In this document: positions 25,494-26,594 of the stretch, one piece after another | Position numbering within the stretch: position 1 is the stretch's first letter | Layout of the letters: every line of letters begins with the position of its first letter | NCBI GenBank assembly: GCA_936941155.1 | Contig: CAKZJE010000109.1 | Span: forward strand, 1-64,000 | DNA length: 64,000 nucleotides | Source: an uncultured Methylomonas sp. | GTDB lineage: Bacteria; Pseudomonadota; Gammaproteobacteria; Methylococcales; Methylomonadaceae | Direction: 5' to 3' | Position numbers and translations under genes: made by a program | Notes under the pieces: generated by a model | The model's input: only the letters and a program-made list of their open reading frames with translations | The model's database searches: none | Told to the model about the DNA's origin: nothing

Positions 25494-25778
25494 TCTAAAT
25501 TAGCAAAACGTAGTTACACTGATTCAATCAAGAAATTTCGTTGGGTGGGCACGCTTTTTTGCCCACCAATTTTAATGGTGCGGTGCGAATTTTTGTTTAT
25601 GTAGGGCGGATTAGCGATAGCGTAATCCGCCGAATGGTGTGGCTCATATTCCGGTGCAATACGCTATCGCTATTGCACCCTACGGAATGTTACGGATTGC
25701 GCCGTACGAGGTACGGAATCTTACGGATTGCGCCGTACGGTGTCAGCAGTAAATATGTTAGGAAAAGGTCAAAAAAAT
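25494..25778. repeat. Cluster of short hairpin repeats
   Basis: No gene. Seen in order: a GGTGGGCACG/GCCCACC hairpin at about 25544-25566; GTAGGGCGGATTAGCGATAG with its complement GCGTAATCCGCC near 25600-25632; a matching AATACGCTATCGCTATTGC/CACCCTAC half to 25684; and two near-identical copies of ACGGATTGCGCCGTACG at 25691 and 25724. These resemble REP/MITE remnants stacked in one gap. The open frame through it is a by-product of the repeats. Confidence 0.6.
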
Positions 25779-25795
25779 TTCCCGCGTTGCGGGAA
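25772..25795 (-). terminator. Terminator of the DUF1566 gene
   Basis: On the minus strand TTCCCGC - AAC - GCGGGAA is followed by A and seven Ts. It is about 20 bp after the DUF1566 stop. In diversity-generating retroelements a GC-rich hairpin just after the variable region also helps retrohoming, so this hairpin could have that second role. Confidence 0.75.
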
Positions 25796-25815
25796 TAAGT
25801 TAAATAGTTGAATTG

Positions 25816-26574
25816 TTAAAAAGCCCGCACAGCCCTAACATAGAGAGGGGCGTTCTTATTGTAGCTGAACTGATAACCACTGTAGAAGTACTGATTCCAG
25901 GCGAGGCCGTAGGCGTACTCGGAGGAACTCCAATAGTAGTCGGACGCAAAACCCCCACGATTTTTTAACGACCCACTCGCCCCCTGACCAATCGTGTTAT
26001 ACATTAAATTCAATTCATCTTTTGAAGGCAAATACCAATCATCGTAGCCATTAAGCTCCAAATCATCACACAGTTTTGCCGCATATTTACCCGCGCCTTG
26101 ACTGCTAATAATAGCTGCGGTGTTTGCCCTTCCTGAACCAGCGGCTGTACTGGTCGCGATTGTGGAATAAGAGCCGTTGTACCATTGAATACCTTTGGAA
26201 TCAGTTTGGTCAGTCGGCGCAGCAATCAAACCATGTTTACCGCTGTCATCAACATAAAAAACAATCCCACCTTGATAATTTTTGCCAATAGCAATGTCTT
26301 CATTAACTGGAGATACAGCTTCTGGTGCAGGAATAACTTCCGCCGCAGGTTCTGCATAAGCTTCTGGCTCAACTTCTACTTTTTTAGAATGATGATGTTT
26401 TTTAACCGCTTTTTGATGATGCTTAGAACTTGTTTTTTGTGCTGGCTTAACTGTCGGTTTAGGAACACTATCCAGCTTATCAAACAACTTTTGATCAAAC
26501 GCATACGCCGTTGTGCTCAAACACAAAACCAGCCCCGCTAAAACACTTTTTTCAACAACATAGGCATAACTCAT
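25816..26574 (-). CDS. Secreted DUF1566/Lcl-domain protein, candidate DGR target
   Basis: 252 residues from ATG 26574 (GGAG 5 nt upstream; ATG 26577 is too close). A signal peptide ends at about AYA. A Lys/His- then Pro/Ala/Glu-rich linker follows (about 27-92), then a DUF1566/Lcl C-type-lectin-like domain: GGIVFYVDDSGKHGLIAA, YDDWYLPSKDELNLMY, YYWSSSEY and YVRAVRAF. DUF1566 domains occur as variable proteins of diversity-generating retroelements. Here the last 40 codons fit that: 20 of 34 codons before the conserved end are NNC, in a genome that prefers A/T in third position, as expected where template AAC codons were randomised. No reverse transcriptase is in the window. It is the last gene of a three-gene unit. 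Confidence 0.8.
   Translation of the reverse strand: MSYAYVVEKSVLAGLVLCLSTTAYAFDQKLFDKLDSVPKPTVKPAQKTSSKHHQKAVKKHHHSKKVEVEPEAYAEPAAEVIPAPEAVSPVNEDIAIGKNYQGGIVFYVDDSGKHGLIAAPTDQTDSKGIQWYNGSYSTIATSTAAGSGRANTAAIISSQGAGKYAAKLCDDLELNGYDDWYLPSKDELNLMYNTIGQGASGSLKNRGGFASDYYWSSSEYAYGLAWNQYFYSGYQFSYNKNAPLYVRAVRAF
25819..25944 (-). other. Putative DGR variable region (VR)
   Basis: Codons read TAC GCC TAC GGC CTC GCC, TAC TTC TAC, TTC AGC TAC and AAC GCC CCT CTC at exposed ligand-site positions, separated by constant TGG, CAG, AGT GGT and AAG codons. The 3' constant segment (GTTAGGGCTGTGCGGGC) could act as the initiation site, followed by a hairpin. This is inference: no template copy is visible within the 64 kb. 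Confidence 0.6.
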
Positions 26575-26594
26575 CATTACTCCTTAACTTTTGT

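Follow-up and report, generated by a model that had tools for sequence, protein, structure and literature searches.

Likely relics of lost diversity-generating retroelements (DGRs) have been described in Treponema denticola. According to the accessible part of that report (PMC4891356), target genes with variable regions (VRs) remain in isolates for which neither a reverse transcriptase (RT) nor a template repeat (TR) was identified. These genes differ from the templates of DGR-bearing isolates mostly at adenines, and the authors regard them as likely leftovers of lost DGRs. Targets can also lie at a distance from an existing cassette: the available portion of a cyanobacterial study (PMC7517822) describes remote variable proteins, encoded by C-type-lectin VR genes away from the cassette in genomes with a DGR RT, as well as a degraded cassette. 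In phage DGRs, a hairpin or cruciform with a GC-rich stem of 7–10 bp and a 4-nt GRNA loop is found 4–34 bp behind the VR, and the function of the loop is sequence-dependent (Guo et al., PMC3240598, in the sections available). DUF1566 is the most common Pfam domain among DGR targets, as cited in the accessible part of PMC6642488.

The window analyzed here is a stretch of 64,000 nucleotides from the draft assembly (124 contigs, 99.98% complete) of an uncultured Methylomonas sp. (GCA_936941155.1, contig CAKZJE010000109.1, positions 1–64,000). An orphaned DGR target has already been described in another bacterium, and a DUF1566 gene in this window would be a further example; we consider it probable, though well short of certain, that the gene is a target orphaned by the loss of its cassette. 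The draft assembly contains a DGR-type VR, and neither a DGR RT nor a TR was found in it, a situation like that of the T. denticola isolates as far as the accessible text of PMC4891356 describes them. The T. denticola template is known from isolates of the same species, whereas the templates related to the window VR come only from the family or beyond, and its exact template is an inferred one. The cyanobacterial remote targets (PMC7517822, available portion) likewise are C-type-lectin VR genes away from a cassette; however, their genomes contain a DGR RT, whereas none was found in the present assembly. Among the papers listed in a literature search, no title or abstract opening concerned the DGRs of methanotrophs. 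The features of the locus are as follows.

25816–26577, minus strand: gene of the DUF1566/Lcl_C protein, 253 aa (open reading frame and Pfam Lcl_C)
25819–25956, minus strand: DGR-type VR, 46 codons, from GGG GGT TTT to the last sense codon, with an approximate 5′ border at 25956 (alignment with the templates of L100, L174 and L075, described below, and paralog differences at template-adenine sites)
25825–25839, minus strand: constant 3′ end of the VR, GTTAGGGCTGTGCGG (where the IMH lies in known DGRs)
25766–25815, minus strand: noncoding 3′ flank like the flanks of DGR-type targets (local alignment)
25779–25795, minus strand: GC hairpin with a 7-bp stem and a 3-nt AAC loop, 20 nt past the stop codon and followed by A and T7 (terminator scan; DNA folding, z −4.8; flank alignment with 12 relatives)

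The gene is flanked by genes for a phosphoenolpyruvate carboxylase and a DUF29 protein. Its product consists of an N-terminus that looks leader-like by eye (no predictor tool was used), a His/Lys-rich linker, and an Lcl_C domain from about residue 95 (Pfam Lcl_C, E 4.7e-12, residues 128–251). The protein is probably secreted, judging from this layout, and would bind an external ligand. The AlphaFold model has block-mean pLDDT values of 91–99 from residue 101 on. Its best match among solved structures is the C-terminal domain of Legionella Lcl (8q4e; Z 16.5, rmsd 3.9 for 126 aligned residues), which has the same fold at 33% identity, and many C-type-lectin folds follow below it in the list. The match to the DGR protein Mtd (1yu3) has a Z of 7.3, which alone is within the range of common chance matches. 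The protein is thus modeled as a C-type-lectin fold with the variable stretch at its C-terminus, as a DGR target requires.

The first-pass annotation had proposed a DGR-type variable region at 25819–25944, based on 20 NNC codons. That count was confirmed, but the interval consists of exactly 42 codons at the C-terminus of the gene, instead of the 34 stated. For comparison, the share of NNC is 17.4% among the 15,401 codons of the other long open reading frames of the window (binomial p = 6e-6), and the remaining 210 codons of the gene include 22. When the last 42 codons of the match were compared for all 26 Lcl_C matches of the genome, the window gene (20 NNC codons, p 6e-6) ranked among the top three, together with genes on contigs C121 (21 codons, p 1e-6) and C73 (18 codons, p 1e-4). 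Counts are slightly elevated in three others (15, 16 and 15 of 42; p 0.001–0.004), and the remaining 20 have p values of ~0.1 or more. The mildly raised trio (L017 and L018 on C116, and L029 on C55) belongs to another Lcl_C subgroup ending in RLVR, and their ends are possible older variable regions.

The genes on C73 and C121 end like the window gene. A 17-base pattern around GTTAGGGCTGTGCGG matches both at one mismatch each; with up to two mismatches allowed, it was found nowhere in the genome but in these three genes, compared to one match for the backwards control pattern. From its position, the GTTAGGGCTGTGCGG segment would act as the IMH. This constant segment and the GC hairpin, both reported in the first-pass annotation, are present at 25825–25839 and 25795–25779 on the minus strand.

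A domain scan of named genomes gave the best matches in MAGs of Methylovulum and Methylococcaceae, plus Methylocucumis oryzae. The top match, L075 from the MAG Methylovulum sp. FW215_bin.51 (G101), is 66% identical in the domain and has, in order, a target VR, avd (Pfam bAvd, E 6e-22) and a template repeat. Its VR differs from its own TR at 20 of 43 adenines and at none of 103 other sites. L174, from a genome of the same family as the window genome (G003), consists of target, avd, TR and an RT with the motif IGNLTSQ, which we take to be DGR-typical; here, VR and TR differ at 19 of 51 adenines and 4 of 102 other sites. In L100, from a Crocinitomicaceae MAG (Bacteroidota), target, avd and TR are accompanied by an RT that is split over two frames, and VR and TR differ at 22 of 52 adenines and 5 of 89 other sites. 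The templates of all three contain the core CAGAACAACAACAATAAGAACAAC. The L174 and L100 cassettes resemble the window in their Lcl_C target and VR layout, and share with each other the TR core and the placement of avd between target and TR; they possess avd, TR and RT, whereas only the target was found at the window locus. The core also occurs exactly in 16 IMG/VR stretches (L222–L237). The RT of L100 is ~65% identical to that of G003, and its Avd is 70% identical to that of L075, across the divide between Bacteroidota and methanotrophs; these sequence identities hint at transfer of cassettes between phyla.

The window VR aligns codon by codon with the template repeats of these relatives, such that AAC or AAT in the L100 template corresponds to NNC or NNT in the window. 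The window VR retains the residues Trp-Ser-Ser, Trp..Gln, Gly..Gln, Lys and Val-Arg-Ala-Val-Arg. No cognate template was found; relative to the templates from other genomes, the window VR is changed at 28 of 54 adenines and 16 of 89 other sites for L100, at 23 of 51 and 28 of 101 for L174, and at 21 of 43 and 28 of 100 for L075. Other VRs of FW215_bin.51 differ from the template of that genome at 7 (L079) and 23 (L078) of 103 non-adenine sites. As these changes occur beside an existing template, non-adenine change of the extent seen between the paralogs (below) is no proof that activity has ceased.

The paralogs within the genome provide a second comparison, for which template-A sites were defined as those with adenine in at least two of the three foreign templates. 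Between the VRs of the window gene and C73, 22 of 48 template-A sites are changed, compared to 7 of 90 other sites (p 4e-7); the corresponding figures are 18 of 48 and 12 of 90 for the window gene and C121 (p 0.002), and 23 of 48 and 15 of 90 for C121 and C73 (p 2e-4). For a fourth paralog, on C31, such a bias is absent in the comparisons with the window gene (p 0.28) and C121 (p 0.29), and weak in that with C73 (p 0.012). The first-pass annotation had suggested looking in related strains for differences at template-A sites only. Applied to paralogs instead of strains, that comparison reveals differences that are biased toward adenine sites without being confined to them, i.e. the adenine bias is strong, yet not absolute. 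Together with the alignment to the templates of relatives, these differences leave the proposed DGR-type variable region well supported.

Synonymous sites, counted over codons with identical residues and leaving out Met and Trp columns, differ sharply between the two parts of the gene. The window gene and C73 differ at 2 of 28 synonymous codons in the VR, compared to 36 of 70 upstream (Fisher p 2.5e-5); the NG86 dS is 0.15 in the VR and 2.25 upstream, with a dN of 0.27 in both. This contrast indicates that the two genes shared a template, or underwent conversion, much more recently than their domains diverged. The drop is weaker between the window gene and C121 (7 of 30 versus 30 of 66; p 0.044), which suggests that C121 took part earlier or from another template, and is non-significant between C121 and C73 (8 of 26 versus 30 of 73; p 0.48). 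For C31 and the window gene, the VR is more diverged, not less (21 of 26 versus 29 of 68). The drop between the window gene and C73, taken with the clustering of their differences at template-A sites, is a retrohoming signature, and retrohoming would be its cause.

The noncoding flank behind the gene was compared with 48 correctly oriented flanks, among which L085 (Methylovulum miyakonense) and L158 represent one gene and three come from paralogs within this genome (L155 was left out). The resemblance reached a z of at least 5 against shuffles for 12 of these 48, from 9 genomes or bins including two of Bacteroidota. Alignment with the 12 relatives gives a common pattern of TAAC.ATTTAAC, a GC hairpin and then (CG)ATTTTTTT. 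The hairpin loop is GAA in 9 of the 12, compared to AAC at the window, and in L098 and L108 the stem is ACCGC/GCGGT, with its outer pair altered. Set against the phage DGR hairpins (PMC3240598, available sections), the stem is retained at the window site, whereas the loop is not. The likeness to the L075 flank stops near the start of the L075 avd gene, which would fit a cassette deletion at this very locus.

The flank is not universal, as illustrated by L100, which has a cassette beside its target and a flank z of only 2.7. No GC hairpin of this kind lies right behind the L100 target, although avd, TR and RT are all present there; the lack or alteration of a hairpin is therefore no proof of an inactive target. 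The C73 flank resembles that of the window in its first part only (z 3.4), the C121 flank not at all (z −0.1), and no GC hairpin of this kind was found behind either gene. The window hairpin also scores as a terminator, in a scan that found two terminator-like sites where 1.4 were expected. We rejected a role as terminator alone, since the hairpin sits in a flank common to DGR-type targets; both roles are possible. Further behind the gene, the intergenic stretch at 25601–25739 contains a 32-nt inverted repeat (81% complementary) and a 28-nt direct repeat with a 31-nt spacing.

The first-pass annotation had noted the lack of an RT in the window and proposed a remote DGR acting in trans. The genome-wide search indeed placed no RT within the 64-kb window, the nearest being at C109:90140, ~26 kb past its end. 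Across the whole assembly, the RVT_1 profile identified only two RTs, with Drt3a and UG36 as their best PADLOC models, and phrog_1423 returned the same two. The latter model was judged not to be DGR-specific, since two of its matches, L052 and L054, carry QG...SP and are not of the GN.TSQ type. With the DGR RT of G003 as query and E values up to 10, the same Drt3a and UG36 RTs were the only matches in this genome (best E 3.8e-4); among the 20 genomes searched, strong matches were obtained in three, G003, G023 and G109, which served as positive control at E 7e-94 or better. Neither RT of this genome was retained as a DGR RT, the one at C109:90140 being best matched by UG36 (E 8e-139) and the one on C18 by Drt3a (E 3e-101). 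The former (L002, C109:90140–90556) is a UG36-type defence RT of 576 aa that directly follows a 295-aa gene weakly matching UG35 (E 3.6e-8), and the region is a candidate DRT locus. The latter (L001, C18:89205–91808), likewise of a defence type, is located ~0.4 kb from the contig end and adjoins an open reading frame that reads by eye as a helicase fragment.

Some DGRs lack Avd. The best Avd match in this genome has an E of 0.22 and falls inside a 1152-residue open frame, compared to E 1e-51 or better for the same query in G101, G023, G003 and G109. The TR core, with up to three mismatches, was not found in this genome; it matches 5 of 101 genomes, of which only the exact match in G003 and the cassette-linked one in G023 carry weight, as the backwards control matches three. 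A 48-base degenerate template gave no match in this genome, and a 75-base VR/TR pattern with the constant 3′ end, searched in 61 genomes, matched only the three VRs of this genome. A 145-base inferred template retrieved these three VRs, any further match in this genome having an E of 0.02 or worse, whereas in relatives it found the TRs of G109, G003 and G101 and the presumed TR of G023 (assigned from its place between avd and RT) at E 1e-43 to 2e-16. It also matches G075 and G026 on Lcl_C domains, taken as VRs, and further sites at G109:C158 and G003:C42. For a phage-borne template with the constant end, TAYGTYAGGGCTGTGCGGG had no exact match in IMG/VR. A domain-alignment scan of IMG/VR gave two loci at 40%, and relatives are present in 11 phage records, all under 60% identity. 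Thus, no complete DGR (RT, TR and Avd) was found in this genome: the draft assembly yielded neither the trans-acting system that had been proposed nor a matching template repeat next to a DGR RT, and the proposal that a remote DGR now acts on this locus is not supported. The machinery appears to have been lost rather than missed.

Among the relatives, judged by sequence, the loci line up as apparent stages of cassette decay, from a complete cassette to a target alone; several of these relatives are MAGs, for which absences are weaker evidence. In G023, target and avd are accompanied by an RT that is broken up and contains stops. G101 has kept target, avd and TR, and an RT fragment (49% identical, with stops) is located on another contig; no RT was found next to its TR. 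An avd remnant corresponding to Avd residues 88–111 lies behind the VR of G104, and the first 17–21 Avd residues are weakly detectable behind the VR of Methylocucumis oryzae (G103; E 0.01–0.5). In G108, the first 25–34 Avd residues are found on a separate contig.

The orphaned-target explanation accounts for these observations as follows. In the past, mutagenic retrohoming from a template repeat containing AAC codons would have rewritten the 3′ end of the window gene, and the sister genes on C73 and C121 would have received ends of this type. The genome would since have lost its cassette (avd, template repeat and RT), and the three genes would persist as ordinary, individually fixed ligand-binding proteins. 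An active DGR that acts in trans on the three loci, with a cassette absent from the draft (on an unbinned plasmid, in a prophage or in an assembly gap), seems unlikely to us. It would explain why three loci share one VR type, two of them with nearly matching synonymous sites, and why the window locus retains the conserved flank and hairpin. A 2–3 kb cassette could be missing from a draft of 124 contigs, FW215_bin.51 shows that VRs may carry non-adenine changes despite a template in the genome, and remote targets are known in cyanobacteria (PMC7517822, available portion). However, at 99.98% completeness RT, avd and TR would all need to be missing, the copies differ at non-adenine sites (7 of 90 between window and C73; 12 and 15 of 90 for C121), the GC hairpin was not found behind C73 or C121, and TAYGTYAGGGCTGTGCGGG was without exact match in IMG/VR.

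The gene or its 3′ end may have been acquired already diversified from a DGR-bearing donor by a lineage that never had the cassette, a scenario that we regard as rather unlikely. The likeness of cassette parts across phyla (the L100 RT and Avd) speaks for it, as do two genomes of the same genus (90% and 93% complete) without a match to the domain at E 1e-15, and for one of their genes, the T. denticola authors offer the alternative that only the target was acquired (PMC4891356, accessible part). Three paralogs are present on different contigs, however, with upstream regions near synonymous saturation and two closely alike VRs, which speaks for retrohoming or conversion within a single genome; acquisition of genes already homogenised in one donor would leave the same picture. 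That no retroelement was ever involved, and that gene conversion of the 3′ end combined with diversifying selection on the lectin face produced the pattern, we consider highly improbable. Conversion too lowers local synonymous divergence, and lectin faces can evolve quickly; yet this explanation predicts neither NNC codons aligned with the AAC codons of real template repeats, nor the bias toward adenine sites, nor a noncoding flank common to DGR-type targets. We favor the orphaned target, the simplest of these explanations.

On that favored explanation, the locus is an example from a methanotroph lineage in which DGR target genes seem to outlive their mutator. The decay series among relatives allows one to ask whether a hypermutated lectin is retained after its sequence has been frozen, and the common noncoding flank offers a simple handle for finding remote or orphaned targets without an RT. 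A broader proposal, which we regard as unlikely, holds that DUF1566 genes with this VR, the constant end and the conserved flank hairpin are standing docking sites. Cassettes would move in and out of lineages, crossing even from methanotrophs to Bacteroidota or back, and would re-capture orphaned targets whose cis signals had been retained; the window gene would then be a dormant target, open to re-capture by a cassette. Within this genome, pairs of Lcl_C domains located close together in open frames of the same size occur on contigs C116, C75, C46, C32 and C106.
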